64,000 bases of DNA from Tetraselmis striata (taxonomy: Eukaryota; Chlorophyta; Chlorodendrophyceae; Chlorodendrales; Chlorodendraceae). Below, in pieces: positions 78 to 62,863 of this stretch (position 1 is its first letter; each line of letters begins with the position of its first letter). The position numbers and the translations under genes are program-made. The notes beneath the pieces were generated by a model. It was not told the origin of the DNA and searched no databases. It worked only from the letters and a program-made list of their open reading frames with translations. Location of the stretch: positions 186,001 through 250,000 of the forward strand of contig VCJN01000285.1 in NCBI GenBank assembly GCA_006384855.1, given 5' to 3'.

Positions 78-3000
78 GCCGGGCAGGAGTCGGAGTCCCT
101 GCTGCGCGCGAGCCTGCTGGCGGAGGGCGGCCAGGACGACAGCGGCCCGCGCGAGGCCGACCCGGTGCAGCGCGGCCCGGACCTGCCGGGCGGCCTGCAC
201 TTTGGCGACTCCCAGCTGCTGCAGGTGTCCCCCCCACCTCCCCCTCCTCTCTTGCAGCCCCCCTGAATAACAAATTACCTGTCTCATTTCAAGCTGGCGG
301 CCCAAGGTAAATGTTTCATATGCCCGTCGTAGTTTGTGGAGGAGATGCAGATGTCATCTGAGTGCGCGGCCACAAAGTAGCGGAGGAATGGGGGCAGGAT
401 GTCATTCATCATGCGCTGGAAAGTGGCCGTATTGAGCGTATTGCATAAACCACAGGGCATTGCACTGCAGCCCACACTAGCAATCCATCTGGAGTCTGGT
501 ACGCCGTTGTTTTGGGTACCTTCCTCTGTGAGCGCCAGCTGCCAGTGTTCTGTGATGGAGGCGCCGGCGGGCTCACTGTGGCTGCTGTGGCTGGGCACCC
601 GGCAGGACGCGCCCCGGGGGCCGGGCGTCTGCCTGCTGTGGGAGGACATCCGCTGCACCATCCGCGTGCGCGCCGGCGCCATGGGCGTCACGGAGCGCCT
701 CGTGCTCGACGGCATCTCCGGCGTCGCGGGTGCGGGCGTCCTTCCCGCCCCCCTTCCCCTTTCTCTTCTTGTCCTGTCCTTCTCCAACTCCTCTACCCCC
801 ACATCTTGTATAGGCGGCGAGTTCATTACAGGTGCCGACGCACCCACAAGAAAGCCGCAATAATTAAAATAATTCTGTGGCGGCCCTGCGGCGCTTTCGT
901 ATTTTCGGTGTACCTTTCTTTGGGTTTGGCCGGTCGCTTTTCCGTCAATTACTTAGTGCCTCCGGGTTCATCGCCACCCGTGATAATAGACGGCGCAGGT
1001 CACCAGTCACCAGCGCGACATATCAGTGATGAGTGTACCCGAGCACCGGTTGGCGTCTTGGCGCGCCCTATTGTCCCTTGTCGGTGTTCATTTTGAAGTG
1101 TCCGTATGTAGGAATGACAAGCGTACCTCCCTTGGGGCTCCTCCTCCCCATGCAGCTCATAGATGCAAATGTGGCCGAGCTTGATGGACGAATGGCGAAG
1201 GATGCCTCTCCCCCCTCCCCCATCCCAGTCTCTTCATTGACCCCAAAAACGGCGTACCCGCCCCCCGCCGCCCCGCAGGCGCGACCTCCCCGCAGACGCG
1301 CGGCTCGAGCTGCGCCGCGCTGATGGGGCCAAGCGGCGCGGGCAAGACGACGCTGCTGGACATCCTGGCGGGCCGCCGCGGGGGCTGGGGCGTCAGCGGC
1401 GACGTGCGCTTTGACGGACGCGTCACCCCGCCCGCCATGCGCATGAAGATGAGTGGATATGTGCTGCAGGTGCCCCCCCACCCCCTCGCCATCGGTCCAC
1501 CGTTCAAGATGTCCTAAAAATCCATGGGAAACTACCCCTGGAGTGTCTTCGACACTGGAATGGTTAACACCATCACCTCCGGCTCCGTACTTTTGAAGAG
1601 GTGCCGACCGTATCAGTTCCAAAGGAAAATAAAAAAGTTTCAGTGGGCTATACCTTGTTTAAAATTTGATCGGATTCGTGGGGCCCAATGACCGGGACCT
1701 GTTTTGCAGCATCGAGGTGCGCTCTCCGCAGCGTTTTCGTTTTGTGTTTTCCGACATAATCCGCATAGTACAAAACACTACTAAGAAAAGCATTTTTTTT
1801 TTGCAATTTCCGTTTTTGACGAATTTTCGTCCTGGCGTTCATTTGCTGCATCAGTTTGGGTTTTTCATCATAAATGTTGCAATTTCCGAATGTTGCATGT
1901 TGGCCTTCACCGCGAAGAGGGGCAACCAGATTGATACACAGTGTGCCCACAGCGTGGTCGTATCACTTAAGCATGATGTGGGGCTATATATGCCCTCAGC
2001 AAGGGCTGCCTGTCCGCCATCGCCCATGGCCAAGGCCTCCCCCGGCATCAAGCCGCAGGGGCACCTGACAGTGATGCCTGGCGCACGCCGCTAACTGCTG
2101 TGCGCCGCGGGCGGTGGGCGGCGGCCGGCAGGACGACGTGCTGCCGGGCACCTCCTCCGTGCTGGAGTACCTCATGTTCCACGCCAAGCTGCGGCTGCCG
2201 GCCAACATGTCGCGCGCGCAGCGCGTCCACCGCGTGATGAACATCATCCAGGAGCTCAGCCTCGGCAAGGTGGCCGCCCTCCCCCCCCCCCCCCCCCCCC
2301 CACCATCCACCGCTTCACCTGAACCCCATCTGCACGCCGCAAGCCGTCATCAGCGGGGGCAGCTCGGCGCTGCTGACGGGTGCCGCAAACCGTGGCAGGT
2401 GGCGCACACCTACATTGGCGACGAGTTTCTGCGCGGGCTGTCAGGCGGCGAGAAGCGCCGGGTCAGCATCGCCGCGGAGCTGCTCACGCGCCCGGGGGTG
2501 CTGTTTCTGGACGAGCCCACCACGGGTGAGGCGGTCCCTGCCGTCCCCATCCAGCTCCCCCGCAACCAATCAACATGCCGCATGCCGTGGCAGTGCCGCC
2601 CGCTCACCCGTCCCCCCCCCCCCCCCCCCCCCCCGCCGGCCATCGCCCTCCAGGGCTGGACTCCACCAACGCGGCCAACGTGGTGGACCTGCTGGCGCGG
2701 CTGGCCTCCGGCGGCGTCACCGTCATGATGAGCCTCCACCAGGTGCGCCATCAGCCCCGCCGCTGAAGAGTGCCCCAAGGCAAAAAACATAACATGCTGC
2801 CTCCCTCCCCCCCTCTGCTCTCCTGCAAGCTGAGCTGAGCTTCTCCGATCTTATCTGAGCTGAGCTGTGGCTGTGCCCCCCCCACCCCCCCCCCCCCTTC
2901 CCCCCTCGGGCTTCCCCCATTGATGTTGGCGCCGGCAGCCTCGGCCAGACATCCTGCGGCTGATCGAGCGCGTGACGCTGATGTCCAAAACGGGGCACAT

Positions 3001-6000
3001 CGTGTACAGCGGCCCCATGGCCGCGGCGGAGGGCTTCTTCGCGGGGCTGGGCCACGCGTCGGCGGAGCGCAGCATCCACGTGATCGATCACATGCTGGAC
3101 GTGGTCATCAAGGGCTCGGCGCACGAGGTGCGCGGGCTGATCGCCGCCTTCGAGGCCAGCGCCATCCGCGAGGCGGACGCGGGCGTGATGGTTCGCATGC
3201 AGTACACGGACGCCATGACGTCCATCCAGAGCGCGCGGCCCGGCTGGCTGCTCAAGTACGAGGCGTCGGCCTGGGCGCAGCTCAAGGTGCTCGCGGCGCG
3301 GCAGCTGCGCAACTCTGTGCGCCACCCCGTGCTCATCTCCCTCAACCTGGGCGCCACAGGTGCCCCCCCTCGCCCCCCCCCCCCCCCCCGCCCCCCGCCC
3401 GCGCCCTCCCACACCCTGCCCTTGCACTGCCTCCCGCCCATTCAGCCGTGTCAAAGAGCAGGCGGGGTGAGGATAGTATCTGCCCTGTACACTTGGCCAA
3501 TAATATGAATGCCGTCAACCAGCGGCCGCTTAGCATACGAACCTATTGTTTGATTGCGATATATGCTACACGGGGTTCAGGATTTCAGGTTAAGGGTTTA
3601 GGGGTTGAAAACCTACTGTAAAAACTCTAAAATCCTAGGCTCGCTGCGCAACCAGGTGCTCAGTCAGCGTGTGCACATTCAGCTTACCCGGCAGTTACTC
3701 ACTGTATTTCACGCGTCCCGATCGATGTGTGTGGTGCATGTGAAACTTGCTGCTGCTGTCTCCCTGCTTTGTTGTCTAGTCCTTGTGTACCGTGGGTAGT
3801 ATTTACAAGCATTCACCCGAGACCGCAGAGACAACCCGTGCTGTTCCATTGGGTTTGCGGGTCCAAAAACGAATGCATTGGGTGGTGCAGCACCGGGCCG
3901 GAGCATCCGTGTCATGTTATTATTTGTGGCATTGCCTGATGTATTTCAAGATATATTTTTCCCTGCTCTTGGGTGGGGGTTGGATGGGGGGCTCGAAATC
4001 GATGACATGCCTTGAAGTCAAAGCGCAACTATAGTATATGTGCATGCAGTGGCATGTGTTCGGATGACGACGGTGAGTGGCGCCGCCCCGAAGGTTTGTG
4101 ACCATGCCCGCCGCCCCCCTTTAACCCCCCCCCCCTTCTCCCCTCTCCCGCAGCGTTTGTGGCCTGCCTGCTGGGGAGCGTCTTCTTCCACCTGGGCAAG
4201 GACACCACCGCCGCGATCCAGGGCCGCTTTGGCGTGCTCTTCTTCATCATCCTCTTCCAGGCGCTGATGAGCCTGTCCAGGTGCGGCGCCAAGGATCCCC
4301 CCCCCCCCCCCCCCCCCGGGATGCGTGACCATCGACCTCGCGCGACGAATAGCATCGCCCCTCCCACAAACACGTCACGTTTAAGCAAGTACCGTCTCAC
4401 CCATTTTCGGAGGTGTTTCGGACGTACTCCGCCGCTACCTTTCTTGGCCTTGTGGCCCTCTCGAGAGCGGGACGCCCCCTCCCCTCTGACCCCCCCCCCC
4501 CCCACCACCACCACCTGCGCGCAGCCTGCCGCTGTGGGAGCAGAACCGGCTGCTGTTCCGGCGCGAGCGCGCCTCGGGCGCCTACTCCACGGGCCCCTAC
4601 TTCACCTCCGTGGTCCTCTTCGACCTGCTGCCCATGCGCTGCCTGCCGCCGCTGCTCTTTGTGCTCACCACCTACGGCCTCATCGGCCTGCGCGGCACCC
4701 TGGGCGCCGTGGCGCAGTTCTGGCTGGTGCTGGTGCTCTCCAACATCGCGGGCGCCACCGCCAACATGGCCATCGGTGCGCCCCCCTCCCCGCGCCCCGG
4801 CTGCCCGCTACGATGTGCGCCATGTTGGCCCACAAGCGCCAGGCGCTCCGCGGCATCGCCACCACTGCTGTCGTCTCCTGGGCATAAGCTCTCATCCTCG
4901 TGCCCGTGGTGTCACCGGCGACTATCCTGAAGTATTTGGGGGGAGGGGGTTATGGCTGTTCATAGCCGGTCACTGAATGACTGATGCGGGTGAACGCTGG
5001 CGACTTCGTTGAAGTTCTTGCGGGTGAATCAATGCCCCCCCCCCCCCCCCCCCCCCCCCCCGGTTTCAGCTTCCATGGTGGTTTGGTGCAGGTTTTCAGC
5101 CCTAAGGTTTGCAGCCCCATCGTCGCCAATTCTCCCCCAGAAAAGTCTGGCTGACGCGAAACGATCCCCGATCGCCGCCCCCACGCAGCATCGGTCGCCC
5201 GTGCTGGTGCCACATGTGATACAGCGGAGGCCACTGGGCTGGCGCTGACCCCCTCCCCCCCCCTCCCTTTCCCCTGTCCGCCTCCCCGCCTCCGCAGGCG
5301 CGTCGGTGACCTCCAGCGCGGTGGCCAACGCCATCGGCTCCATCTACTGCCTCTGCAACATCCTGCTCGCCGGCTTCCTGCGCTCCAACGCCGGCATGCC
5401 GGCGCCGCTGCGCTACGTGGCGCAGCTCACCTTCGTGTCGCCCGCGTACGAGGCGCTGCTCATCAACGAGTTTGGGTACAACGCCACCGGCTTCCGGTGC
5501 GCCCCGCCCCGCCCCGCCCTGCCCCCCGGGGCCGGCAACGCTCACAGCCAAGTTACCTAATCGAATCGGCAACACGCCATACCGTGCCCATCCCGCAGGA
5601 TGTGCCCCCCCCCCCCCCGCCCCCCCTCTCCTTCCTACCTCTCCCTCTCTATCACAGCTTGATGTTTTGACATCGGGTTACTGTGTGGCTGTGTGTCTAT
5701 GTGCGTGTTGGGGGGGTGTTGAGGGAGGTGGCCCGCATGCCCGTCCCCTTAGTGGCAGCGCCAGTTGTTCATGGAGTCGCATATGTTGCCACTCGGCAGA
5801 GCGGTGCACGGCCGGGCAGCGTGGGCAGTGCGTGTCAGCATAGGACATGGGCGGAGGCCCACCAGGAGGGAAGGGCGCACTCTGGCAGATACGGCGCAGA
5901 CACGCGACCCGACCCACCTGGCGCCGTCCTGTCACATGCCCGACCTCTTGTGTTTATCCGCACCTTAGTGTGCCATAGGTTACACCGAGTAACGCATGGT

Positions 6001-7386: not shown

Positions 7387-7548
7387 CCCTCGCAAGGGGG
7401 GGACGCCCACCCGAATTGCCCCCACCCGCCCTGCAGGTGCTTCACGCAGCATACCTCACGCCCCGCACTGATTGCCCGTAAGGATGGCCGCCGTGAAGCC
7501 CCCCCCCCCCCCTGCTACTCCCCCCCCCCCCCCCCCTACCCCCGTGTT

Positions 7549-9833: not shown

Positions 9834-9836
<3 letters not shown>

Positions 9837-25976: not shown

Positions 25977-26281
25977 ATGGGTGTCCGGTTCGTCGGGCGT
26001 CGCGCACCCCTAGTGGCGGTGGCGTTGCTGCTGGCCTACAGCTGCGTCGCGGACGCCAGGTGCGCATTTTCAGACGACCATCATTTTCCCTCCCCCTCTC
26101 TCGCTTTGCCTGTCTCTGGCGGCCCAGTTTCGCTCCGCATGGGGCGGCATATGTTCCGTATTCGTGGGCCAGGCGTCAAGGAAACATTTGTGTGGTGTTG
26201 GCGCCAGCAGGGGTTCCAGCGGGCCGGGGCGTCATGGCAGCGGAACTCGGTTAGGCCGATGACAGATAAGCCCTGCCTCCA

Positions 26282-26317
<36 letters not shown>

Positions 26318-28240
26318 GGCGGGCGATCACTCTCCGCGTCGCGTCAGCGCTCGTCGCATGGATCTTCCCTGCCGACGTTGCTATTGGGTACTCGGACAGG
26401 CACCCTGCAATTCTGCGACTGGGCTGGCTGCGGGGTACAGAAGCAGGTAATATGACAGCACAGACCTCCCTGTCGGCTGGAGGAAAAGGTCCAGCTGGCA
26501 TCAATAATAACACAAGACGCGCCGGTCAGTCGCTGAGGTGGCAGGGTTGGAGACTGTTGGGCAACTTCCGCCGCGTGTCTCCTATGGTATGGGGGCAGGA
26601 ACTTGTCGGGGACACAACTCAGTGCAGCTGACTGGTCGATCAACAACGAATCAGGCGTTCCCGGCCCGGGGGCGGTGGTGTTGGGGAGCGCGGGGGGGGG
26701 GGGGGGGGGAGGTTACGGCCCCTACTTGAAATATTCGCTGTTATAATTTTATGCCTTTACCGGGTACTTTGCAGTATTAAAACAGCAGGCTTTCGTGGCT
26801 AGCTCGCGACGACGTCTGTGCTGGCAGCGGGCCTTTGGCGGCGGGGCATCAGGTGGGGGATAACACACCATGACAACTGCCGCTCCGTCAGGTTGCTGCT
26901 GCGGGACGACGAGTCATCGTCCGGGTACGACGGAGACCTGCCGGACTGCGTGGTACGGACCGACTCGTTGTCGTTTGTGGGCAAGGAGGGTGCCGAGCCA
27001 GCCGGCCCGACCAACAGCATAATCAAGTGCGAGGCGGCATGCTTCGAGGACTATGACATCATGGTCTGGGAGAACAGGAGGTCCAGGTGTCTCTGTTGGA
27101 AAGCAGAGGACGGGGAGTGGGAGGAGAACGAGAAGGCTAGGGTGTACGATATCCGTCCCTGCCGGGGAGAGGAATCGGCCATGCGGGTTCCCGCCACGGA
27201 AATGCTGACACCGGCGACCACCACCATGGTGGGAGCGAGCCGCAGCACCGCGGACGTGCCACCGAACCAGTTCACCTTCCCTACCAGGGCCGGCGCCGGC
27301 AGCTCGGCAGGTGCACAGATCCCCGCGCCAGCCGTCGTTGGAAGCCCTGCGCGGGCGCCGTTCCAGTTCACTCGGCCCAGTATCAGCAGCCCGCCGCCTG
27401 CCGCCGCGGTGCCGCCCAACCAGTTTACGCTGCCGAGCCGGGCCGGCGAAGCCAAATTCACCGCCCCCGCTGCAGTGCCGCCTAACCAGTTCACCTTGCC
27501 TGGCATGATGAGCCCCTCTGGTAGCCCTGGCGGCATGATGCCCACCTTCAGCCAGCCTGGTTCGCACGCCTACTTCATTCTGCGGGTTGCTTACACGCAT
27601 CGAAATGAAACCATAGTCGCACGCCTCCCGCAATATTATATCACTCCGAGTGCTGTCTTCTGACCTGTGCGATTCCGCCAACGCCCTCGCAGCGCCAATC
27701 CCGCCGGCAGAGACCGGGTCGTACCAGAGTCTCGCAGGCAAGGCGTGCATCGCAGGCGTGTCTTCGGTGAGCGCCCTCTTCCTGCGGTTGTAGTCTCGAA
27801 ATCCCGAACTGCGCCAGCCATGTCGAACGACGCGTGTCGCTTCATAATGGTGTTCTGTCTGACGCTTTCCGAGCGCTGCGTGTTGTTTGCTCCGTCAGAC
27901 ATGGGACGACTATTTCAAGGCCGGGTGCATCGGCGACAACCAGAAGACCATCTCCGTCGGGTACCTCATCTTTGAGCGCCCGCTCACGGGGCTGCTCCCC
28001 GAAGTGAGGCCGTACGACGGCAGCTTGGTGGCGTGCAAGTACCTGTTTGAACTCAAGGCGGAAGGACGGCTCGTCAACCAGGACATCTTCCTCGGCACTG
28101 ACAGCTGGCTCACCTGGGACAGCACCACCCGTGCCTGCAAGATCTACGAGACCAGCGCCTCGTGCAACGTGCTCGAGTACAGCCCGGCCACCGCCGGAAA
28201 GATCAGCTCCCGCTTTTGCCCCCGCGGCGCCACGAAGTGA
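25977..28240 (+). CDS. Secreted cysteine-containing protein with PPNQFT repeats, 3 exons, function unknown
   Basis: Exons 25977-26059, 26892-27585 and 27899-28240 (1119 nt, 372 aa). The first exon encodes a clean signal peptide (MGVRFVGRRAPLVAVALLLA ending near SCVADA). Mature residues about 29-120 hold a small Cys-rich domain (CVVR, KCEAACFEDYD, RSRCLCWK, RPCRG) reminiscent of WSC/PAN-type modules. Residues about 145-240 contain the spaced repeat PPNQFT(F/L)P (three good copies plus PFQFTRP). The last exon has a separate Cys domain (AGCIGD, LVACKYL, RACKIYE, ASCNVLE, SRFCPRG). Probably a cell-wall or extracellular protein. The second donor (CGG|GTTGCT) is the least certain splice site; the first intron holds a 33-base G run. 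Confidence 0.75.
26283..26315. repeat. Pure 33-base G tract
   Basis: Inside the first intron of the PPNQFT-repeat gene. It is one of the rare plus-strand introns with G rather than C on the sense strand. Confidence 0.9.
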
Positions 28241-30165: not shown

Positions 30166-31286
30166 CGGGGAGTGGGGAGAGAGAGAGGGAAAGGGGGGGC
30201 GGGGGGGCGTACGAGATGTTGGCCACCGCCCCTTTGACGGACCCCTTGAGCAAGTCAAAGCCTGGCAGGGGTGAGACAAAGCACACACGGTAGCTCAGTC
30301 GCGGAAGGGCAACCAGCGGCTGCACACAGGGCCATGGAGGAGGAATGAACATGAAAGGGTATGTTTTCTTTTTCTGTTATTTTGGGGCGCGGGGGGCGGG
30401 GAGGGGCACCCATGTAGCCCAGCTCGTCCACAAAGTCCGCCTGCGTCACCAGGTCCCTCTTGGGCCCCGCCCGCTCAGCGGCGCCCTCCGCGGTCAGCAC
30501 CGGCTCCATCAGCTTCGAGGACGAGTCGCCGTGCACGCCGTCGTTGAACCCGGACAGCGTGCTCGAGGTCTGCAGCGCCTCGATGGCCTGGGTGGCGGCG
30601 GCAACAGGGGACAACACATCAGGGCCGTGGTCGGCACTTCCAACCGGAGCCCTGGACAGAATGGGCACTCGTATGCGGCTCTGCCTGATCATGCGTGGCA
30701 TGCACTGTACATTCACGCAGCACCCATACATGCACACCACAGCATCGTGCCTATGCCCCACACACACGCATACGTGTACTGAGCTCTGTCCGTCGTTGTG
30801 CCGCAAGGGGGGGGGGAGGGGGGAGGGGGGGGGGGGGGGGCATGATTCCCCACAAGCACAGCATAAGCATGCAACATTAGCCATTTAACCCGACACTGAC
30901 AGTGTCGAGTGAAACAAAGCCAGTGCATAAACATGCCGAGTCCCACTTTGCGTTTGAGTGAACGAGGTACCTGGACGCTTTATCATGTTGGTCCGCCCCA
31001 CAACACGTTCTCCTGCAATCTTCAACGTGCAATCTTATGGCTACTCGGGATTGCAGGCATTAGGGCCCTGGAGCACCCAAAATCCCGAAAGGCCAAGAAC
31101 AGCGGCTGACTGACGGGTTAGCTGGCCGCCACTGCGTTGACGCAACCGATGGCGCGCATCCAAGGGCGCAGCGGGTGGAGTGACACCCTCCACTTCAGCA
31201 GAGGGGAACTAGGAACTGAGGGCTGGTAATGCAGAGCCCTTGATGAGGCATCTGGTACGCCTGCCCTGCCCAGTAACACACCCAGC

Positions 31287-31319
<33 letters not shown>

Positions 31320-31666: not shown

Positions 31667-31721
<55 letters not shown>

Positions 31722-39454: not shown

Positions 39455-39455
39455 G

Positions 39456-41831: not shown

Positions 41832-44800
41832 TCATGTTTTGGTCGCGTCACTGGGGTTCGGCGGGAGCAGCTGCGCGGCCAAACGATCGGCAATCTCTTG
41901 GCCCAGGGCGCACTGCGCCTCCGTGGAGAGGTGCAGCTCATCGGGGAGCTCCTCCTGCCGCCGCGCGTGCGGCCTTGCATCCACAGTGGCAACCCCCGGC
42001 ATGCGGAGCGCCAGCTGCGCGGCGCGGACCCGCTCCACAAAGGGCAGGGCGCCGCGCGTGGTGTGGACGGCCACCTGACTCCAGGCGGGCGTGAGCAAGG
42101 GTATGATGTGAGCAGCGGCATGCCGGGAGGGAGCCCAGTACTACAGGTTCCGAGTCGGCCGGCGCAGATCCGTAAACCCTGCGGATAACGACAGCGGAGC
42201 CACGGCGGCAAAGACATACCTTAACACACGTACCGGAACGTATGGCTGCTGATGCAGTAATATCAAGCAAACTGTAAACAGCAAGAAACTGCGCCACCCG
42301 TCAGAGGGGTGCATGGTGGATATTCTAGGCAAAACGACTGTTAAATGCTAATGCTCCTATAGGTTTTAGGCAATCCAATGCAAGCCTTAGGCGTTTTAAT
42401 ATGGGTTCTTTGAGGTGAGTCCTCACCGGTACCTGGGTACATGTGGTAGTGTTGCATAATGCATACAACCTGCACATAGCGTAACGGGAACTGCACTAGT
42501 TTTGTGGCAATGTATATCACGGGTGAATCAAATCCTCTGCACGCCAGCAGCATCAGCACCAGTGATTATACGGCACTCGTATATGCAAGGGCATGCAGCC
42601 CTGCGTGGCGGCACAAGGGTGGCTCCGCGGCGGAGGGGCGCACCTGCACAATGGGCAGCTCCGGTACGCCCAGCCGTTCGCGGAAGGCGGCGAGCAGGCG
42701 GGGCAGCTTGGCGGAGAAGGCCGCCGCCTTGTCGTCGCAGTCACAGTCCGACTCGCCCTGCCGCACACATCCGCAAGCAGCGGTTAGAGGCCGCCCCCAT
42801 TGAGCAGCCCGCAGCCCGGGGTCTGCACGGTCAACATGCCTATGTTGCTTCTTGTTTTGTTTTTTAAATGGAAACTGGATTAGAATGTTGGCATCTGATG
42901 AATGAATGCGACTTTGTGTGCTATAATTCAAAAATCGAAACACGTTTACTAAATTGCCAAGTCATGACACAAAGTTACAGAATGCATTCCGCTGTTGCGG
43001 AAATAGTCCCCCGGAACCCTAAAATGCCGATACTTAGCCCACACAGCATAAACCATGACTGCCAAATACACTAATAAGGGGATTTTAGGAACAAGCTAGG
43101 AGATTTAGAAAACATGGCTTGCAGTTCCCCAGAAACATTGTATAGCTCTTTTGATTGGATGCCATCGCTGGATCATGCCCCAACAGAACTATCAATATAG
43201 AATAGAAATATGTCATCACAGCGGACCTTCTATATGGTATGGTCAAATTCTTGTTTTGTTTTGATGGACACTGGATAAGAATGATCGCTGTATCATGCCA
43301 CAACAAAACAAACAATATAAAAAGAATTACGTCATCACAGCGGACCTACGATATGGTACAGTATGGTCAAACTCGCCCTAATCCTCAGGTCTGGGGTTAT
43401 GGTGGCTGGGGGCATCACCCGGTCCCAATCGGGTACCTGGCCGCCGCCCTAGCTAGGGTTTGTTTTTAGGTAGGGGGGGGGGGGGGGGGGGAGGGGGGGT
43501 GTCCGCCCGCCACAGCCCTGGGGCCACCGCGCGCGGAACCATCCAGGACGGCGGATGCTCTGGCAAAGTTCCTGGCAGTTTCGATATTTTCCGGCCGGCG
43601 CAGCAGCTGCTTAACTGGGGCGCTTGCGGGGCGGCCGCGCTGAGGACGTCGCGGAGCTTTACAAGACCACTAAAAGTGGGCATGGTGGTGGTAGGAACCA
43701 AAAACTGGTATCATGTAGCCATGAGCAGAGTGCCATGCCTGGAGCAGCGAAAATATCAACTTGTGCAAACCGGTTCCAAAACCCACCGCCAAATAAGGAA
43801 GTAGTGGATGACAGTGCCCGATCTTGTGCGGGACACCAAAGACCCCCCCCCCCCTCCCCCCCCCCCCCCCCCAAACCCCCAAGCTAGACACCTGTGGCGA
43901 ATCGTGTAGAAACTCAAGAAAGTTGGCCGTCCCCGGCCTCCTGCTGGGAGATGCCGCCGATGTACAATGATCTCTAAGAAACAACCGGCCGATAGCAACA
44001 GCTCCCGTCATACTGCCATCGTGCAATTCATTGGCATTAACGTTTCAGCTGTGAATTACTTGGGTGAATAAAGCGTTTGTGTTATACTAGCGCTCGGAAT
44101 GTTTTATTGGAGAGCATTGCGCGGGGCAGTGGCGCACCTGGTACCACAGCAGTCCGCTCAGCCGGGCGCCCCGCAGGCTTGCCAGCGCTGCACGAGTCCG
44201 CTGGATGGCGTTCTCGAACAGCTCGCCCCCCGGCGCCCACTGGTCCATGCTCGTGTTGCCCACCGCGCACGGCACCAGGCCTGGGCGACCCGGTACAGCG
44301 TAAGATGGGCAAAGGGGGCAATAACAGTCTGGTCAACAAGCACATTGCAGAGGGGTCTGCCGTGGCAGGTGAGCAGTCATTGGGAATTAAGCGGGGGGGG
44401 GGGGGGGGGGGGACCTATGACGGCGTGATCGCTCCGCAGCGTCTGAAGTCGCCTGGCGAACGCCATCCCAGGCCCGACGCCGCAGGCTTTGCTGGTGTCG
44501 ATGCCTTCGTGCAGCGGCTCGGCGGCTGGGGCCCATTCCGCCGCAGCATTAAACGCCAGGATCTGCGGGCCGCCAGCCGGGGTTGCCGGCACGTGAGCCC
44601 AAACGGAAGGGCCAAAGAAGCCACCGCAACGAAAGCAAAGCGTTGCCGAGCCCGGTCCAATTACCCAGACGCCCATCCTTATGGCATGAAGCTCAGCGCT
44701 GCATTAGTAGCATTACAGCCCTACCAATGCCCCCCTCCGCCCCCCCCCCCCCCCCCCCCCCCCCCCCCGCCTAACTATGCGTTGTCTCCACTAGACATCG

Positions 44801-46243: not shown

Positions 46244-49200
46244 ATGCCTGCAGCTCTAATACGCGAGAAGCCAATATGCGGTTGTCGCTCGGCGGAGGAG
46301 TCTGTGATGGCACCTTGCATCCCGCCTCCGCCCGGCAGCATCGCAACGCCGCCTCGGGCCATCTCAGCACGCAGGGCGGCTGGTAGCCGAGTCGCTGACC
46401 CTGTATGCCCGGCCGCGTTTAAGGCGGCGTCCAGCGACAACGGCAATGGCGCGGCGCCCAGCGTGGCATCGCCTGCGCCCGGAGCCGCGCTGTCCCCCGC
46501 ACAGCGGGAGGGCCTCATCTTCACCACCGGCGTGAGCGGCTCCTGGGACGAGGCCTCCGTGGGGAACCCCGTGGTGCGTGGAGCCGCGGCACGCAGGATG
46601 ACCCCGCTGAGCCGTATGTGTTGCGTTGCGGCGGACACTGACAGCCCTCACCAACCACTCTGCCCCTCCTTCAGGTACGGTACTCCTCCGTGGAGGGCCA
46701 GTCGCAGTGGTGCATGTGGTACGCAGGCGCCACCTCCGAGTCGCCCGCGCTCGGCAGCGTCGCCCCGGTCGCGGGCAGCATCGGCGTCGCCATGTCCGAC
46801 GACGGCGTGACCTGGACCCGCGGCTTTGGCGCCATCACCGGCGCTCGCGAGCAGGAGAAACGTGCGACCCCCCCCCCCCCCCCCCCCCCTTCGCCCCTCC
46901 TGCCCCCCAACACACCACGCACACACAAAGGTACACAGAGACACACATGCCTCCCACGGCCCAGCCATGCCCGCTGCCGACCCTCTCATCCTGACTGTGC
47001 TGAGGCTGGTGCGCGGCGGCGTGCTCGCGGCGGCCAGGTGATGCGGACGTGGGCAAGATCATGGAGCAGAACGAGGACTGGTGGTGGATGGACACCTGCC
47101 ACCTGGCGGCCTCCGATGTCCAGGTGGAACCCCCCCCCCACCCCCCCCCCCCCACCCCCCCCCCACTTGCCGGACCAACTGTCCACCTGCCCCATTTTGC
47201 CAGCCATGCAATACATATACAGGTGTGTGTGTGTGTATATGTATACACAAATATACACATATATACATATTTACATATTTACATATAAATATGTATATAT
47301 GTGTCTATATATTTATATGCATATATGCATGTGTATATATATACTCAGTCGTATACATGTATGGGTGAAGGTGACGCTCCTTGCGCATCCTGGCCCTTTC
47401 CGTTCACCTCTCCGCAGAGCGCAGCGCCTGCCTCACGCGCGGGGTCGCTTGCCTGCGTGCAGGTGATGGGCGACAGCGACGCGGGAGCGGGCGTGTTCTG
47501 GATGTTCTACAGCGGCGCGGACTGGGAGGCGGTGGAGGTGCCGGACGGCCTGAGCGGCTCCATCGACGAGAAGGAGGTGGAGGGGCTGCGCATGCGGCCG
47601 GGCCTGGCGCTCAGCCAGGTGCCCCCCCCCCCCCCCCCCACACACACACACAATTAAAAGCCGGTCCCTCTTATTCAGTCGTCAATGCATCAGGGATGTC
47701 GCCTGGATTCATCAACTGGTCACGTGGACCGGGCCTGATAGTGAACTTGATTCCTATCCAGGAGCCAATTGGTCAGACGCAACGATCATTGGAACCCGCA
47801 TTGGGTCCCATGCAGATCAGACCACAGCCTGATCTCGGTCTTTTGCTTACTTCCTTATCGAAATTATCTTGATCTTTTGGTCGCGACTCCTGATGCGGAC
47901 CCGACGGGCTGAGCGTGCCGGTGCGCACAGGATGGGAAGAACTTTGCGCGCATCGAGGGGGACCACCACTCGGGCGCGCTCTTTGACGTGGGCGAGAAGG
48001 GCGAGTGGGACGAGCTGTTCATCGGGCACCCGCAGGTGCAGCCCCCCCCCCCCCCCCCAGCCCCAGCCCCAGCCCCCCTCCCCGCCCCCCTTCCCCTCGT
48101 GCTGAGACTCACCGTGCGTGTTGGTCCCCACGGCAGGTCCTCACCGTGCGGCCAAAGGACATGCGCATGTACTACCACTCGTACGACGCAGCGGCGGATT
48201 GCTACAAGGCAGGGCGCATGCCCCCCCCCCGCCCCTCCCCGCGCGGCGCATGCAGCTGTCTCAAGCCGCTGCTGACTGCTCTCCACGCGTTCCCGCCAGG
48301 TGGGCCTCGCGGTCTCCACCAACGGCTTCCGCTGGGAGAAGAAGGGCGTCATCTTTGAGGGCGGGCAGGGCGACTTTGACGCCCGCGGCGCCGCGGCGCG
48401 CCATGTCGTGCGCAACCGCGACGGCGACTTTGTGATGTTCTACGAGGCGGTGCGTCACCTGCCCCCTCCCCCCCCCCCCTATCCGCGGCTCTTGGCCGCC
48501 ATATCCCCCCCCCCCCCCCGCCCCCCCCAAAAAAAATGACAACGACGCCACCAGGGCACCACCTCCCCCCCCCCCCCCCCCCCCCCCCCCCCGGATTCCC
48601 CCCTCCCTCCCACCGCAGCCATTCTGTAAGCGGCACGGATAAGAAGCGGCAGGTCGATCCCACTCTGACCGAAGTACGATCCCCACCTCTTGTCACCCCC
48701 CTCTGAGTGCGGTGCGGCAGGTGGCCAAGGACGACACACGCTCCATCGGGATGGCCATCTCCAAAAACGGGCTGGACAAGTGGTACGCCCCCTCCCCCTT
48801 GTCCACAACACACACACCCACACGCTCACATGCGCGCGCGAATCCGTCCTTGCAGCCTCCAGCGTGCTCCGACCCGGTCCATGGCAACCACCATGGCGTG
48901 CGGCATCCAAGCATGCGCCTTGAGTGCTGCCCCCGGCGCCCTGGAGCACCGGGGACATGTCGCTGCATTTCAGGGTCGCGCAACTGACTTACTTTTTTCA
49001 CCATGGAGTCCGAGGTTCCGCGCGGTGCTTGGTATTGTGGATTATGACACATTTCCAAATATGTCTACATTTTCCTTCGGTGCAAGGGGTTTAAGACTAA
49101 TGTTAATAGCAGCATGGTTAACGGTATTAATGTCATTTATTATAGTGTGCGACAAACCCAAAGCCCAAGGGAGGGGGAGGGGCAGGGGGGGCTCTGTGTC

Positions 49201-49562
49201 ATTTCTTTGTGACGAGGGGTGTTTCCCTCCTCGGCGTATCTGCCCACAGGACGGCCGTGGGCGGGCCGGTGCTGGCGCCGTCAGGCGTGGCGGGGGCATG
49301 GGACGGCGGCAGCGTGGGCACGCCCCGCGCGGTGCCGATGGCCGACAGCTGGCGCCTGTACTACGCCGGTGAGAATGCCCCCCCCCCCCCCCCCCCTGGA
49401 GCTCTTGTACACACCCACATCCCCACTACCCGCTGCGGCGAGAACCTGTAACAGCCATAGCGGCAACAATGCTCTCGCATGATGCACTGTATGCTACACC
49501 GCAAGCCGCAATTGTGGTCACTCTGCTACCGGACATCAAAATGGTTTACCCCGACGTTGCCC

Positions 49563-49596
<34 letters not shown>

Positions 49597-49995
49597 CGCT
49601 CCCTTTCTCTCTCTCTCTGCCTCTACATGGATGCCCACCGTACATGTATAGGTGTTGGTGTAGGTATAGATGTAGGTATTATATTATTCCATTTCGAAAA
49701 AGTTTTAGGTAAATGTTATGAACATTATATATAATATATCTGCTTACTAGGAGATTGGTCCCCATGATGTTGGCCCGGTGAGGCGTGCGGACACGCTCAT
49801 TAACAGGTGAGACACAATGCCAGTAACTAATTCACTCACTGCGTCGGGTCGCCTGCCTCCCCCCCGGCAGGCCGCGCGGAGGGGGAGGCCGCGTGGACCG
49901 GCATCGGCATGGCGCTCAGCGAGGAGGGCGGCGCCAAGGTGTCGGGCATGGCTGCCTCCTTCCGCCGCCGCAAGGACACTGGGGCCACAGCCTGA
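46244..49995 (+). CDS. GH32/GH43-like five-bladed beta-propeller protein, 10 exons
   Basis: Exons 46244-46573, 46675-46861, 47038-47123, 47463-47618, 47931-48035, 48137-48208, 48300-48449, 48721-48782, 49250-49368 and 49871-49995 (1392 nt, 463 aa), phases consistent. The repeated signature of arabinanase/invertase/levansucrase-type propellers is clear: GSWDEASVGNPVVRY, WCMWYAGA with IGVAMSDDGVTWTR, VFWMFYSGAD, GEWDELFIGHPQV, MRMYYHSYD, VGLAVSTNGFRWEKKGV, GDFVMFYEAV, SIGMAISKNGLDKW, SWRLYYAG, WTGIGMALSEEGG. Plant and cyanobacterial relatives are annotated as glycosyl-hydrolase-like; substrate and activity are unknown. The N-terminal Arg/Ala/Ser-rich stretch may be a plastid transit peptide; start could be ATG 46244 or 46307. 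Intron 6 appears to use a GC donor (AAG|GCAGGG). Confidence 0.88.
47220..47345. repeat. TG/TA-rich low-complexity tract
   Basis: GTGTGTGTG followed by many TATACA/ATATAT units, in intron 3 of the propeller gene. Confidence 0.8.
48209..48299 (+). other. Probable GC-AG intron (propeller gene intron 6)
   Basis: Exon 6 ends TACAAG and the next bases are GCAGGG; exon 7 begins after CCGCCAG. Reading on without splicing gives a different frame from the conserved VGLAVSTNGFRW block, and no GT lies between the last conserved codons and the C-rich intron body. Confidence 0.65.
49565..49593. repeat. (CT)n microsatellite
   Basis: About 14 CT units, in intron 9 of the propeller gene. Confidence 0.95.
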
Positions 49996-55335: not shown

Positions 55336-55368
<33 letters not shown>

Positions 55369-56009: not shown

Positions 56010-56964
56010 CTTATTGGCTGCCGGAGCTCCCGCGGCGGCGGGTCTGCCACACTGTATGTCAGGCTAGCCTATGGACGCGCTCCGCAGATGGCAGCCCCGG
56101 CGGCGTGCCAAGGGCGGAGGAGGGGGTGATGGGGAGTTGGGATAGGATATGGGGGGGGGGGGGGGGGGGGGGGGGGGGGAGCGTAGGGAGTGGATGAGGG
56201 GGTAGGAGGGGTGGAGGGAGAGAGGGGAGGTGGTGGCGAGCGGTCGTGGACGACGATGCGCGCAGTCCGCCGGCAGCGGTTGGCAGGCCAGGGCTGGAGA
56301 TAGACAGTACACTTGCTGCTGAGGCGACGCAGGCCGGTGAGGCTGGACGCCAGTCGCTGATGGCGAAGTGGCAAGGGGTGAAGACGGCAGGCGGTGGCGC
56401 GCCGTGGCCAGGTGGGCGGGTGTTTGCTGGAGTTGGTGGTACCAGGGGGTTATTTGCAGGAGCGGGGTCTGTAGTTAACTGCTGTGTGTCACACCATAAT
56501 ATACCTACACGTAGTACATTCTGACAACGACTCGCTCGCTCGGCGGCGCGCGGGACGCCCGATCATACATTGATGACGACCGCGGGTGCACATCGCCGCC
56601 GGTGATCTACGCATCACCAAGCATCTCGGTCCCCCCCCCCCCCCCACCCCCCCCCCCCCCGCCCCCCGCCGCACGCCACTCATCCCCGAGCCCTGAATTT
56701 TCAGCCCCACGGGCCTGCGGACCTCCCCGGCCCTGGACGGCTAGCCCAGTGGAATTGCGCCGCAGCCGCCGAGCGGGTGGCGGCGCGTAATAAGACAGCC
56801 CACTCCACCGCTACTCGCCCACTCGCCAGGCGGGCTCAGCGCCCCGCACCCACCCCGCGCCAACGGTGACGGCAGCCAGCTCTAGCCGCCAGCTGCCAGC
56901 CACCAGCGAAGCGCGTGCCCCTGGGCGACGCCCGATTTGAGCAGGGCAGGGGGCGTAGGGCAAA
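56010..56964. other. Divergent intergenic region between uS17 and CstF-77 genes
   Basis: Both genes read outward from here. Contains a poly-G run (about 56151-56179) and a C-rich run (about 56632-56660). No ORF with a domain. Confidence 0.5.
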
Positions 56965-59900
56965 ATGACGTCGAAAGGGGTGAGCGGCACCGGCTCAGCC
57001 CCCCCCCCCCACCCAAAGTCTGACTGCCCCCCCCCCCCCCCCCCCCCAGAAATGTGTCCTCTGCTTTCTTCGGACTGACCTTGACCGGTTGACCTGTTTG
57101 GTAGCGGGACCCGCGCGCCCAGCTGGCGGAGAACCGCTACGACGGCGAGGCATGGGCGGCGCTGGTGCGCGAGACGCGCAACCGCCCCGGCAGCGGCGCG
57201 GCGGAGCTGCGCAAGGTGCTGGAGGAGCTGCTGGAGGTGTTCCCCACGGCGGCGCAGTATTGGAAGCTGTATGCGGAGGCGGAGCTCGCGGACAACAACA
57301 TCGCGGGCGCCAAGGCCGTGTTTGGGCGCTGCCTTAAGGGGCACTGCCCCAGCGTGGACCTCTGGCGCTGCTACCTGCAGTTCATCAAAAAGGCGAGCGG
57401 CGCCCCTTTCCCCAACCTTTACCCCTCCCCTCTCGCCAGCCTAGTGGCTGCACAGCCGCCGTGTCTGCCGCTCATGGCCAGCGCCACTGGGGAGCGAGCG
57501 CAGGGACCCTATGGGGATGGAGGAGAGGTGGTGAAGGGCATTGCAGACTGGACGCACCAGTGACCCAATGGCGCGGTGGCTTCGCAGTGCCAATCCTGCG
57601 CCATGCCACCACCACCGCCACCACCATCCCAGTGCGGCATGTCCGCTGTCCAGCAGCGTGCTGACAAGCCCCCCCCCCCCCCCCCCCCTGATTCCAATCC
57701 GCCCCTGGGGTCGCTTAGATGAACGACGGGCGCGGCGGCAGCGGCGACGCGGTGCAGGTGCAAAAGGCGTTTGAGTACACGCTGAACCAGATCGGCAACG
57801 ACCTCGCGGCCGGCGTCATATGGCAGGACTATATCAGCTTCCTCAAGGCGCGCCCCCCCCCCCCCCCCCCCCCCAAACCCAACCAAACCCAACCCGCCCT
57901 TCCCCCTTTCCCTCTCTCTCATATGGCGGGGCCCTACCTCCACGGCTCGAGGGGTAACGGTGGCGTCGGGCGGGATGGTCCCGGAGGTCTAGGCACCCAT
58001 CAAGCCCACCCAGCATACCTCATCCGCTCTCCAACCCCTCATGCCACATGCCCAAAGTCCTGGCAGCCCCGTGAGCGCAGGGCCTCCCCACATAGCCCCC
58101 TGTCCCCTACACCAGCATGGTGCACAGTGAGGAGTGGGCTCAGAGAGCGTGCGACGGCCGGTGCTGCAGCTACCATAGGCAGCGGCGGCGGCAGCGGCGG
58201 TGTGGCCGCTCTGTGCCGCTAACGGTGGTGGTGGCCGCAGGCGCCCAAGGTCGGCTCGCCCGCGTACGCGGCACTCTTCGGCGGGGGCGTGGCGGGGCAG
58301 GAGGAGTCGCGGCGCACGGTGGAGCTGCGGCGCGCGTACCAGCGCGCCATCGTCATCCCCACCGCCTCCATTGACAATCTGTGGCGGTGCGTCACCCCCT
58401 CCCCGCCCCCCTGCAGCTAAACAACCACGTGACGTAGCTAGCTGCTGGGTGTACCATCTTCTCCTCACGTACGGGTGCCGACGCACTGGTAAGAATCCCT
58501 GTGATCACTTGCATGCAACCTGTTAGAACGTTCGCCATAGGTTCGTCTTTATTTGACCCTACTATCAAGCAGGTCAGGTTCTTCATCGCAGCGTTGTTCA
58601 TACCGCCGTATTGATCAACACATTTACATGTATGCTTTCATACGTGGCGATATACACACACACGCACATTCCGCGCGTCCCCTCTGACCGCGGGCCCCCG
58701 GGTCCCTGGTCCACGTGCGCTCTCGCAGGTCGTACGAAACGTTTGAGAAGGAGGCGAGCAAGCACCTCGCGGCGCCGATGCTGACGGAGCAGAAGCACAA
58801 GTACCAGGCCGCCAAGACGGTGTTCCAGGAGCGCCGCCGCCTGCAGGACGGCATCAAGTGGGACCTGCTGGCGCTGCCGCTGGCCGCCAAGTCGGCGGAG
58901 ATGGAGAAGCAGGTGGGCCCCGGCCCCCGGCGAGTGGCCCCTACTTGGAGGGCACCTTGGGGCTTAGCACCCAGTCAAGGGGGCGATGCCTGTACCGACA
59001 AGGGCGCCCCTGCCATCCGAGCGCGCGGAGCATCCCCGAGCCTGGGTGCAACACGCTGATACCGCTTAGTCCGATCCCCACCGAGCATTTTACCGCCAGC
59101 TCGCAGTCAACCCTCTAGCCATCCACAGCGAGCCTCCTCCCTGCTCTCGCCTACCTACACCGCAACGTTGGCCCGGATTTAGGGTTTGTTAGGGTTGCTT
59201 TGACCTTGTCGCTGAGCGCAGCCGCCCGCCGCTCCCCCCCCCCCCCCCCCCCCCCCCGTGATACCACCAGGCCTTGTTGTGGCGCGCCTACATCGCGTAC
59301 GAGGCCAGCAACCCGCAGCAGCTGGAGAAGGGCGCGCTGCAGGGGCGCGTCGGCCTGGCGTACGACCAGGCGCTCATGTTCCTGTACCACTACCCCGAGC
59401 TCTGGCACGACGCGGCCGCCTGGCACGTGAGCCACCCGCTGGGCGGCGGCCGCGCCAGCGCGGCGCACGTCTTTGAGCGCGCCAAGGCCGCGCTGCCGGG
59501 CTGCGCCATGCTGCGCTACGCCGCGGCCGACATGGAGGAGGCGGCCTCCCGCGAGTGCGCCGCCGAGGGTACGTGCCCAACCCGGCCGCCCCTTATAGGG
59601 CGAGCACCTCGGCGCTTGTAGATACATAGGCGTACCCTAGGCTCCTTGTAGGTTATCGTATGTCGTGTTTCATGTTATATGTTTGTATAAAGGACACTCC
59701 AAGCGATATCAAGTAATATAAAGGACAAACCACACTCCAAGCGATATCAAACCCCTCTACTGATGGGATAGCTCTACTGTATCCCCAAGTTGTGCATGGA
59801 GCTCCGGCCCGGTCGTCGTATGGTACGCTGAGTAGGGTAATCATGATGAGTGTACATCAGGTCAGCGTGGAAACTCTGCATGGGAGATTTTTTGCGGGGT

Positions 59901-60063
59901 CGTGTCATGGGATATTTCACGCGTGATGCTAGGGTATGTCCTAGGGCCTTTGGTAGGGTACACTCTTGTCCCATATAGTTTTATAGGGTAAGGTTAGGGT
60001 TTTGAGCCCTGCCATTGTCCACCTTCCGTACCACACCCATTCCGCTCATCGCCCCTGACTCCC

Positions 60064-60094
<31 letters not shown>

Positions 60095-62863
60095 AACCCT
60101 CTCCCTGGGTCGCGCAGGCCAGGACGTGGAGGCGGAGGAGCGGTTGAAGGACGCAGAGGCCATCTACAAGGCCCTGGTGGGCGACGGCGAGGAGGGGGAG
60201 GAGGAGGTGCAGGCGGGCCTCGAGGCGCGCGCGCTGTCGTGGGTGCTGTACATGCGCTTTGCGCGGCGCGCGCGCAGCGTCAAGGCCTCGCGCGAGGTCT
60301 TCATGCGAGCGCGCAAGTGGGCCGAGTGCCCCTGGCAGGTGTACGTTGCCTCGGCGCGCATGGAGTGGGAGTGCAGCCGCGAGGAGAAGGTGCCCGCTCC
60401 TCCCCCCCCACACACACCTTCCCAAGTATTAGTGTGGGTTCCGGAGGCTAAAGGTTTTGCTAGGAGCAAGTAGTTCATCCCCTTAGGGTTTCAGAGATTA
60501 GGGCTAAGGCAGGTTCTTACATTCCGAACCCTAACATCAAGGACATAAGCCCTAAACCCCACAAATAGGGCACCCATGAGCCCCCCCCCCCCCAATTGGA
60601 CATACGCTTCCGCATTGTTTCGAGGACAGTCGCTGGATGTGAGGTGAGGTTGAAGTTAAATGGGGGGGGGGGGGGGGGGGACCCCAGCGGCGCCGCCCAT
60701 CCGTCTGTCCCCTCCGGATTGTGCCCGCTTCAAGAGTGTCAGTTGCCTGGCTCCGGTGTCCATCATTCGACAATTGATGGTGTCGAATTCCATCAATCCG
60801 GAGGGATTCCATGACTGCGATCGGTCGGGATCCATCATTCCCGCCACCCTCAGCGGCGCCGAGCAGCAGTAGCATTCGTTACACCCACCCGACCTCCCTC
60901 CATCGCCATGAATGTGTTTGGCTTTCGCATTTTGGCCGGGTTGTACGTTTACACGGATTGGCCATAATGCGGCGACATCCCTACCAAGCCGCCCTTGTTG
61001 GATACCCCCTCAGCGTGTATCTGAGAGCGCTCCGTTGCTACTGCCGATACTGACTGTGCAACTGCACCCTGTGCCCCCCCCCCCCCTCCCCCCCCCCCCA
61101 ACACACACACACACAAAGGTGGCGCGCAACATTTTCGAGAACGGCCTGAAGAAGTTCATGACCAACAAGGAGTACGTGGAGGCGTACGTGGACTTTCTGC
61201 TCGGGCTGGGCGACGTCGTCAACGGGCGCACGCTGTACGAGCGCGCGCTGCAGGAGAGCCCGGGGCAGGCGGCGGCGCAGCCGCTGTGGGACAGCTTCGT
61301 CCGCTTCGAGTACCGCGTGGGCAGCATCGAAGCGGTGCGCGCGCTGGAGGTGCGCGCCCCCCCCCCCCCCCCCCCCCCCTTCTCTCCTTTCGGATACTCT
61401 ACTCCCTCCCCATCGACATCAGGCAAGGGGGGCGAGGCGCTTCCAAATGCCGTAAATCCTATCCCTGAGACCAGCACAAAGCCCTTGATATCGACCTAAA
61501 CTTGGGGTTTCATAGGGCCCCAAATGTATACAGTTCCATGCGAACATGGGGCCTTGGCATTTTTTGACCTAGGGTTTAAGCGGAGGGTATATTAGGGTAT
61601 CAATGCACCACATCCCAGGCCTGGTGGCTGCCTCCCATCACTGGGCGGCCTGGCTGCGCGACGACCCCGGCGACGAGCCATCGTGCTTCGACCCCGCCCA
61701 TGGACGGCAGACTGAGGGTGTGTGCTGGGGCTGCTCTGCTCTCACCCCGCCAGGGGCGGCGCCGCGACGCGCTGCTGGCGGCGGGCGCGCAGCCGCAGTC
61801 GGACGCGCTGAGCAACATGGCGCTCCGCTACTGCTTCATGGGCATGTGGCCGGCGGAGGGCACGGCGCGCGAGTACATGCAGGCCACGCTGGCCGGCAAG
61901 CAGTGGTCCTCGCTGGGCGCGCCGCCGCCGACGGCGCCCAAGGCCGCGGCGCAGCCCGCGCCGGGCCCCGCCGCCCCAGCCGCGGGCCGCCCCGCGGACG
62001 CGCGGTCCCCCCTCCGCGCGCCGGAGGGCGCGCCTGCGGGCCGCCCCAACGGCGGCGGCAGCGGCGGCGGCGGTGGTGCACCCAGCCAGAGCCAGGGGCC
62101 GGGGTCGGGGTCGGGCCCGCCCCGCCACGAGGAGCGGCGGCCGCCCAGCCCCGGCCGGCGCCCGCCCGCGCCGGGCCCGCCGCGCCCCGCGCCCGCAGCG
62201 GCGCCGATGCCGATGCCCGGGCCCAACGAGCCGCTCAAGCAGCTGCCGCCCGCGTTGGGCCGCTTCATCGTGGCGCTGCCCCAAAAGGTGCCTCTCCCCT
62301 CCCCCCCCCCCCTTCCTCGGCGCCTTTGACTGTTGCATGTGACTGTGCGCATATATTATCAGCGTGTGTCTCCTTTCATCTTCCGTTGGCAGCGACGTTG
62401 CTTCCGTAGCGCATGTGGCGTGACTGACTGCGCCGGCTGGCTGGCCGGCTGGCAGGTGGTGGAGGGGAGGGTGCCGCCGGTGGACCTGGTGATCGACGTC
62501 CTGATGTCCGCCGACCTGTCGCCGGCGGCGCTGATGGCGGCGGCGGAGGAGGGCGTGCGCGGCAGGCCGCCGGAGCCCGGCCCGCCCGGCCACATGATGC
62601 CGCCGGGCGGCGGGGGCCCACCACAGGGGCCGCCCATGGGCGGCCCCCACCCCGGCGGCGGTCCCGGCGGCCCCTTTCCGGGCGGTCCCGGCGGCGGCCC
62701 CTTTGCGGGCGGCAAGCGGCGCCACATGGAGGGAGGCGGCGGCTTCGGGCCGGACGGCGGCGGCGGCGGCGGTCCTCCCCAGCTGCCCGACAACCGCCCG
62801 CCCGCCTTTGACATCTACCGCCAGCGCCGCAGGCAGAAGATGGGACAGGACGGCGGGCGCTAG
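56965..62863 (+). CDS. CSTF3: Cleavage stimulation factor subunit 3 (CstF-77 / suppressor of forked / Rna14 homologue), 10 exons
   Basis: Exons 56965-56979, 57105-57392, 57719-57847, 58241-58386, 58729-58912, 59271-59568, 60118-60389, 61119-61349, 61754-62287 and 62456-62863 (2505 nt, 834 aa), phases consistent. Residues about 6-560 are HAT (half-a-TPR) repeats that follow the animal/plant CstF-77 order: NRYDGEAWAALV, FPTAAQYWKLYAEAELA, DLWRCYLQFIKK, VQKAFEYTLNQIGNDL, WQDYISFLK, LRRAYQRAIVIP, WDLLALPLA, YPELWHDAAAW, AHVFERAKAALPG, LYMRFARRARSVKASREVFM, VARNIFENGLKKF, VDFLLGLGD, RALEGRRRDALLA. The Suf-type C-terminal part is followed by a Pro/Gly-rich tail (about 590-834) ending FDIYRQRRRQKMG. 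CstF-77 is the dimeric scaffold that bridges CstF-64 and CPSF in pre-mRNA 3'-end cleavage. Introns 2 and 3 appear to have GC donors. Confidence 0.94.
57393..57718 (+). other. Probable GC-AG intron (CSTF3 intron 2)
   Basis: Exon 2 ends with the conserved LQFIKK and the next bases are GCGAGC (AAG|GCGAGC). A GT donor further downstream (about 57526, GAG|GTGGTG) is possible but would add about 45 non-conserved residues. Confidence 0.6.
57848..58240 (+). other. Probable GC-AG intron (CSTF3 intron 3)
   Basis: Exon 3 ends WQDYISFLK with AAG|GCGCGC followed by a 17-base C run; exon 4 starts after GGCCGCAG. Phase 0 on both sides. Confidence 0.65.

Follow-up and report, generated by a model that had tools for sequence, protein, structure and literature searches.

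Long homopolymer C tracts in the introns of Tetraselmis striata lie predominantly on the sense strand and are densest just behind the donor splice site: the 221 predicted introns of our clean set held 81 sense-C and 17 sense-G runs of at least 10 (4.8:1, p = 4e-11), and within 30 nt of the donor there were 28 C runs and 1 G run. This splice-site gradient is a new feature of strand-biased intronic G/C tracts. We adopt, with confidence that is about evenly balanced, the reading that splicing determines where, and on which strand, these C tracts lie, and that the tracts themselves are microsatellites prone to slippage.

The window is the 64-kb stretch at positions 186001–250000 of contig VCJN01000285.1 (C221), part of a 224-Mb assembly in 2903 contigs; its GC content is about 60% and it carries eukaryotic, spliced genes. 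A 360-kb sample was formed from the window, a further 196 kb of the same contig, and 100 kb from other contigs. So that the strand question could be asked without circularity, genes were called with our own tract-blind gene finder, in which C and G runs of at least 5 were neutral, noncoding DNA followed a single strand-symmetric model, splice signals were restricted to few positions, and coding periodicity was learned first from seven Pfam kinase matches and by self-training afterwards. The trained finder returned 40 genes and 408 introns in the sample, and a version with near-neutral splice signals returned 407 introns, 192 of them identical to those of the trained version; the intron evidence thus consists of predictions by one gene finder in two versions. 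Predicted introns were divided into 350 shorter than 1 kb and 58 of at least 1 kb. The clean set retained 221 of the 350 (no more than 20% of an intron repeated in the sample; 55 in the window, 166 outside), and the 129 dropped were introns in repeats, in repeat-like genes, or in the second copy of each paired locus.

Gene strands agreed with known proteins (CstF-77, uS17, and transaldolase) and were also backed by Pfam matches of single exons in the esterase, acetyltransferase, urease, and other genes; 12 of the 30 exons tested had a match at E ≤ 0.01, two, the ABCG exon among them, only below Pfam's cut-off. Errors of the finder included the merging of neighboring genes, the calling of repeats as genes, and the reading of one ABCG intron as an exon. 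Additionally, a multi-copy gene-like element was observed at window positions 38253–40617, at about 13.7–16.3 kb and 72–75 kb of C221, and at 7.8–9.5 kb of contig L021; its exons were 100% repeated in the sample, and its copies were about 74–90% similar among the matches listed. It is probably a transposable element, and the introns predicted inside it are unreliable.

All 350 introns shorter than 1 kb together contained 100 sense-C and 26 sense-G runs of at least 10, against 2.6 and 0.45 expected from order-1 Markov resampling of the same introns. The 95% range of this ratio by bootstrap over genes was 2.2–6.4; with window-touching genes removed, the counts were 49:19 (bootstrap range 1.4–5.1). 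Introns called alike by both versions of the finder (179 of the 350) gave 58:12, and the near-neutral version gave 95:31. The clean set divided into 40:6 in the window and 41:11 outside it, and by gene, a sign test across its 26 genes found a C majority in 15, a G majority in 2, equal numbers in 2, and no runs in 7. Most clean introns carried no run of at least 10, with C runs present in 59 of 221 and G runs in 16 of 221. Such a C run was found in 26 of the 55 clean introns of the window, which is therefore richer than the rest, and the claim of the first-pass annotation that nearly every intron holds a tract was overstated. When every run of at least 8 was exchanged C for G before gene finding and the original letters were counted, the two versions gave 98:25 and 93:32, and 33:2 and 28:4 within 30 nt of donors. 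Gene-finder bias was thus rejected as the source of the strand bias.

By feature class, runs of at least 8 in the sample numbered 12 C and 4 G in 95 kb of exons and 118 C and 28 G in 102 kb of introns shorter than 1 kb. Sense-C runs in clean introns reached 1.274 per kb and strand, about five times the 0.249 of other repeat-filtered noncoding DNA, and sense-G runs, at 0.267, equaled that baseline; the asymmetry is therefore a gain of C, and loss of sense G was rejected as its cause for the sample. Equal density in other noncoding DNA, which the first-pass annotation had set as grounds for abandoning its claim, was not found in the sample. No bias was seen in the 58 predicted introns of at least 1 kb (25:23 runs of at least 10), many of which probably span merged genes or repeats, or in the 37 first introns (5:6, against 95:20 in later introns, p = 0.01), where errors in gene starts may blur the comparison. 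The flanks of 37 genes, taken up to 400 bp, were likewise unbiased at 9 C and 11 G runs of at least 8 (4 C and 6 G on the upstream side, 5 of each on the downstream side), small numbers from stretches that delimit UTRs only roughly; flanks and introns nevertheless differed (Fisher p = 0.001).

Within the window, 71 runs of at least 8 C or G were assigned to feature classes. Introns shorter than 1 kb held 44 sense-C and 6 sense-G runs, as expected from the earlier claim that intronic tracts place C on the sense strand, and introns of at least 1 kb held 7 and 5. Exons had been described as almost free of tracts, and indeed only three runs fell in predicted exons, all sense C and one really in a missed intron; a further six lay in intergenic DNA. 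The missed intron is in the ABCG gene on the plus strand, at 2270..2398, where sequence reading places C21 (2281–2301) 11 nt after the donor; the gene finder had called it exon, and the corresponding residues are absent from the upstream ABCG copy. In practice, an in-frame C-tract intron can be miscalled by a gene finder as a proline-rich exon, as happened here. In the same gene, intron 2526..2653 carries C23 (2612–2634) 19 nt before the acceptor; intron 3360..4153 carries C7 and C17 (3373–3389) at its donor end and C11 (4125–4135) 18 nt before its acceptor; intron 4281..4524 carries C21 (4297–4317) 16 nt from the donor and C14 (4490–4503) 21 nt before the acceptor; and three more introns (4776–5297, 5497–7142, and 7383–7587) carry C27, C9, C14, C21, C14, and C17. 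A (CTATG)n array with some 27 repeat units was also observed at 6659–6792, inside the predicted intron 5497–7142.

Two further plus-strand genes were rich in tracts. In a propeller-like gene, a name taken from the first-pass annotation and unconfirmed, the last seven predicted introns (46862..49870) had identical boundaries in both gene-finder versions; six of the seven contained sense-C runs of at least 8 and none a sense-G run of that length, and in five of them a run starts within 10 nt of the donor (46868–46889, 47130–47164, 47622–47639, 48042–48058, and 49378–49396). In CSTF3, which encodes CstF-77, sense-C runs of at least 8 occurred in 9 of the 10 predicted introns from 56412 on (56412..62392), near the donor at 57853–57874, 61357–61379, and 62301–62312 and elsewhere in the introns as well; the sole sense-G run among the ten is G19 at 60662–60680, and a sense G29 at 56151–56179 lies outside this range, in an uncertain first intron. 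Two predicted introns, at 57848–58240 (C22 starting five bases in) and 55047–55156, were of the GC-AG type; these may be genuine, or the finder may have misplaced their boundaries.

On the minus strand, plus-strand G runs correspond to sense C. The two introns of uS17 (55302–55566 and 55675–55988) carry sense C29 (plus-strand G 55339–55367) and C28 (55925–55952), and the transaldolase intron 30588..31359 carries sense C31, C16, and C10 (plus-strand G 31289–31319, 30825–30840, and 30807–30816). In the esterase gene, where Pfam found an SASA esterase domain on the minus strand, the GT of intron 44281..44414 is followed directly by sense C20 (plus-strand G 44393–44412). The exceptions that had been named, including 60661–60680, were sense G as claimed: G25 in transaldolase intron 31540..31787 (plus-strand C 31633–31657), G17/G12 in esterase intron 42758–44137 (plus-strand C 43843–43872), which also carries sense C19 (plus-strand G 43473–43491), and G29 in esterase intron 44563–45211 (plus-strand C 44740–44768). 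The last exception, with sense G33 (26283–26315) and G18 (26692–26709), is the predicted plus-strand intron 26060..26891, around which the gene model is unconfirmed because the neighboring exon (26893–27558) had no Pfam match.

The distribution along the intron was steep for C and flat for G. Among 289 introns of 90–1000 bp, C runs of at least 8 per kb fell from 4.04 within 30 nt of the donor to 1.21 at 30–90 nt and 0.53 in mid-intron, and toward the acceptor rose again, to 1.52 at 30–90 nt before it and 1.61 in the final 30 nt; the corresponding G densities ranged from 0.22 to 0.40 across zones (donor 0.23, acceptor 0.23, middle 0.22). The first tenth of the intron held 34 of the 100 sense-C runs, and in several predicted introns the tract starts directly at the GT. 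At the other end, the last 40 nt of the clean introns contained 16 C and 2 G runs of at least 8. Short runs followed the same course: in the first 40 nt of 314 introns, C3:G3 was 163:83 (2.0), C4:G4 91:28 (3.2), and C5:G5 41:5 (8.2), against ratios of 1.2–1.4 in mid-intron and 0.85–1.06 in exons, and in the last 40 nt before the acceptor C4:G4 was 77:23. Even the 141 introns without runs of at least 6 had 37% C and 28% G at +7..12, compared with 28% and 27% inside, and introns without runs still had 33% C and 27% G at +31..45. The zone in which the long tracts lie is therefore rich in C and poor in G even where such tracts are missing.

Motif counts across the 224-Mb assembly, made with no gene calls, pointed the same way on the donor side. 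The donor motif AGGTGMG was followed at 0–20 nt by C10 in 1610 places (reversed control 217) and by G10 in 684 (326), and at 60–80 nt by C10 in 716 places and by G10 in 689 (234). The reversed control for C10 at 60–80 nt (1132) exceeds the pattern itself, so we rely on the comparison between distances, in which C10 drops and G10 is flat. The equality of C and G genome-wide that the first-pass annotation had named as counter-evidence was accordingly not found behind donor motifs. The reversed pattern itself, C10 D N{60,80} GMGTGGA, occurs about five times as often as the reversed control at 0–20 nt, and a repeat family with a C run at this distance may lie behind the count. On the acceptor side, the probe TGCAGG showed no C bias genome-wide (C10 914, control 348; G10 1190, control 502), in disagreement with the 16:2 of the sample; this probe mixes both sides, since TGCA is palindromic and G10..TGCAGG equals CCTGCA..C10, which fits an exon end, donor, and C tract. 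A C-rich motif near splice sites is thus above background at both ends in the sample and on the donor side only genome-wide. A permuted-motif control on the 360-kb sample had too few matches to be informative (at 0–20 nt, C behind 3 of 134 motif hits against a permuted mean rate of 0.0047, and G behind 2 of 134 against 0.0151). Overlapping C18 matches in the whole genome numbered 197,721 and 196,947 on the two strands.

Tract length has the character of a microsatellite. In the 360-kb sample, the numbers of C and G runs fall with length to about 9–10 and then persist, C as a plateau that reaches 35 and G with another rise at about 16–20 and a maximum of 34, and A/T runs have no long tail, with only one longer than 12. 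Intronic sense-C runs of at least 8 have a median of 18 (quartiles 12 and 22), and those near donors a median of 20. Many kinase matches in the assembly come as contig pairs with equal scores, and five such loci (L021/L022, L023/L024, L025/L026, L027/L028, and L029/L030), fetched as kinase loci, were compared. Their matching pieces were mostly 94–99% identical over several kb, a few lower, so part of the assembly probably represents split haplotypes or recent duplicates; aligned parts differed by 0.4–3.3% substitutions. Four loci had tracts and the fifth had none, and length differed between the copies at 21 of 25 tract places; 20 of the 25 had at least 8 in both copies, and 4 were of equal length, with the caveat that some places belong to a single compound tract and that homopolymer read errors, or duplications instead of alleles, could contribute. 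Tandem ABCG half-transporter genes (C221 176 kb to window 7.4 kb) have only about two intron positions in common in their aligned part, so intron turnover looks high. In the first common intron, one copy has C18 at 29 nt from the acceptor, and the other has C21 at 11 nt from the donor; in the second, C23 is present in one copy only. An assembly search with ABCG stretch 2401–7400 found no second copy among the matches listed.

The closest known case is Caenorhabditis (PMC2211496), where G/C homopolymers occur far above chance, are common in introns and rare in exons (4 of 396), and place C on the coding strand. As there, C/G homopolymers are over-represented in T. striata and A/T runs are not, tracts are many in the genome and rare in exons, and C lies on the coding strand within genes. 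The orientation bias of the Caenorhabditis tracts is weaker (84 vs. 47, about 1.8:1) and they show no preferred location within introns, in contrast to the 4.8:1 of our clean set and the 28:1 within 30 nt of the donor. A common place with different lengths in paired copies is a trait of slippage microsatellites that T. striata shows; for short tandem repeats across eukaryotes, the excerpted text of PMC11686069 has nothing on strand.

Vertebrate splicing offers a second comparison. PMC2481429 describes C-rich intronic splicing enhancers and cites, for a chicken beta-tropomyosin intron, hnRNP K acting on a C-rich motif close to a 5' splice site; the resemblance to T. striata is that GC-rich introns carry C-rich motifs beside their splice sites. 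Those enhancers comprise three to four C and were tested by mutation in single introns, whereas the tracts reported here are 10–35 C long, widespread, and known from sequence alone; G-rich motifs can also replace the C-rich ones in vertebrates, according to the same source, whereas sense G is not above baseline in our sample. The C-rich polypyrimidine tracts bound by alphaCP/PCBP, presented in PMC4797308 as an acceptor splicing signal, have a counterpart in the C-rich tract before T. striata acceptors, but here the peak is at the donor, and the acceptor excess is smaller and absent from the genome-wide probe. Among the literature matches listed, no title or abstract opening reported donor-clustered poly-C in algal introns.

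Of the explanations that dispense with splicing-set placement, a transcription-linked process, mutational or selective, is doubtful but a live possibility: sense-G tracts would form R-loops through the nascent G-rich RNA and G-quadruplexes on the displaced DNA strand and be deleted, leaving the sense-C tracts, with splicing irrelevant. It gains from the C excess away from both intron ends, where the clean set still has 46 C and 16 G runs of at least 8, and from C. elegans, in which 84 noncoding-strand against 47 coding-strand intragenic G tracts are linked to transcriptional structures (PMC2211496). Purging of this kind, including the i-motif/G-quadruplex form raised in the first-pass annotation, nevertheless should lower sense G, which at 0.267 per kb is not below the noncoding 0.249; the 400-bp flanks meant to cover UTRs are unbiased at 9:11, although with few runs and only roughly placed UTR ends; and the bias depends steeply on distance from the splice site. 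The mid-intron excess leaves room for a transcription-linked share.

We also consider doubtful a neutral seeding of the tracts, in which the donor context (GTGCG and then C) supplies short C seeds that slippage lengthens without selection. Of the predicted donors, 43% do show C at +4 and 56% at +6, figures that are partly circular because the trained finder re-estimated its splice signal from the introns it had called; the near-neutral version gives 33% and 38%; the differing lengths at common places between paired contigs, and the tract turnover seen in the common introns of the ABCG copies, with tracts at non-matching places, fit as well. However, the short-run excess extends past the donor consensus to +31..45 and returns before the acceptor, and something must keep the seeds themselves C-rich. 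Repeat expansion, proposed in the first-pass annotation, accounts in the same way for length, given the tail to 35 and the 21 of 25 differing places, but alone sets neither strand nor position.

Arrival of the tracts with recently gained introns or introner-like elements is very improbable: tracts directly at the GT in several predicted introns and the high intron turnover suggested by the tandem ABCG copies would suit it, but the clean set, in which no intron is more than 20% repeated, has 81 C runs, and the best 40 of 262 similar intron pairs fall repeatedly in the same multi-copy stretches (C221 13.7–16.3, 72–75, and 224.5–226.6 kb; L021 7.8–9.5 kb), so that no single sequence family among introns, as in introner elements, was found within the 360-kb sample. 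An artefact of gene calling, assembly, or a chance-rich window has a negligible probability. Genes were called with a single finder of our own, whose two versions (408 and 407 introns) had 192 introns in common; sequencing may misread the lengths of homopolymers; and tracts are more frequent in the window than in the remaining sample. Even so, the bias survives the swap control, holds at 41:11 outside the window, and recurs in motif counts that use no gene finder, known proteins confirm the gene strands, and an assembler is blind to gene strand.

Under the reading that we adopt, of slippage-prone microsatellites placed and oriented by splicing, the ends of introns, above all the first 30–40 nt after the donor, would be rich in short sense C and poor in G, as observed in the sample also for introns without long runs. 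The genome would then let C/G homopolymers grow long with labile lengths, as the differences between paired contigs support, and long sense-C tracts would pile up beside splice sites because C-rich ends and lengthening coincide. The C-rich zone may be kept because it is helpful, or harmless, to splicing, and by analogy the likeliest agent would be a candidate C-binding protein of the hnRNP K/PCBP (KH) kind at the donor. Among the ideas of the first-pass annotation, a CU-rich splicing element is the best supported, by the donor peak, the short runs near both splice sites, and the unbiased flanks (few runs); the genome-wide acceptor pattern, from a confounded probe, shows no C bias, and we infer the effect on splicing from the arrangement of the tracts.

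The C-rich zone may bring another benefit, since a stretch with C but little G could leave a region of 60–70% GC less folded. In 180 introns, the C-rich flank folded at a mean of −31.0 kcal/mol against −35.0 for the C/G-swapped flank (p = 4e-9), and donor accessibility showed no gain with the real flank in the same number of introns (0.368 vs. 0.389 unpaired, p = 0.39), so that accessibility is not supported as an explanation for the C. By donor score, sites followed by a C run at +8..60 were not weaker than the others (2.84, n = 25, vs. 2.63, n = 228; p = 0.34), and this comparison gave no sign of compensation for weak donors.

Whether intronic homopolymers are junk or are shaped by splicing is hard to judge where bias is weak, as in C. 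elegans (1.8:1); in T. striata it is strong and tied to donor distance, which suggests an influence of splicing on the homopolymer runs that are retained in introns. Because 1610 donor-like places have a C10 run close behind them, and paired contigs often differ in tract length, a single organism could serve to relate the length of C tracts to the efficiency of splicing. A bolder reading, improbable in our estimate, is that a C-binding protein in this lineage recognizes introns in general by the C homopolymer that follows the donor and, in part, by one that precedes the acceptor; in that case, slippage between alleles would change tract length, and many genes would carry fast-evolving splicing dials.
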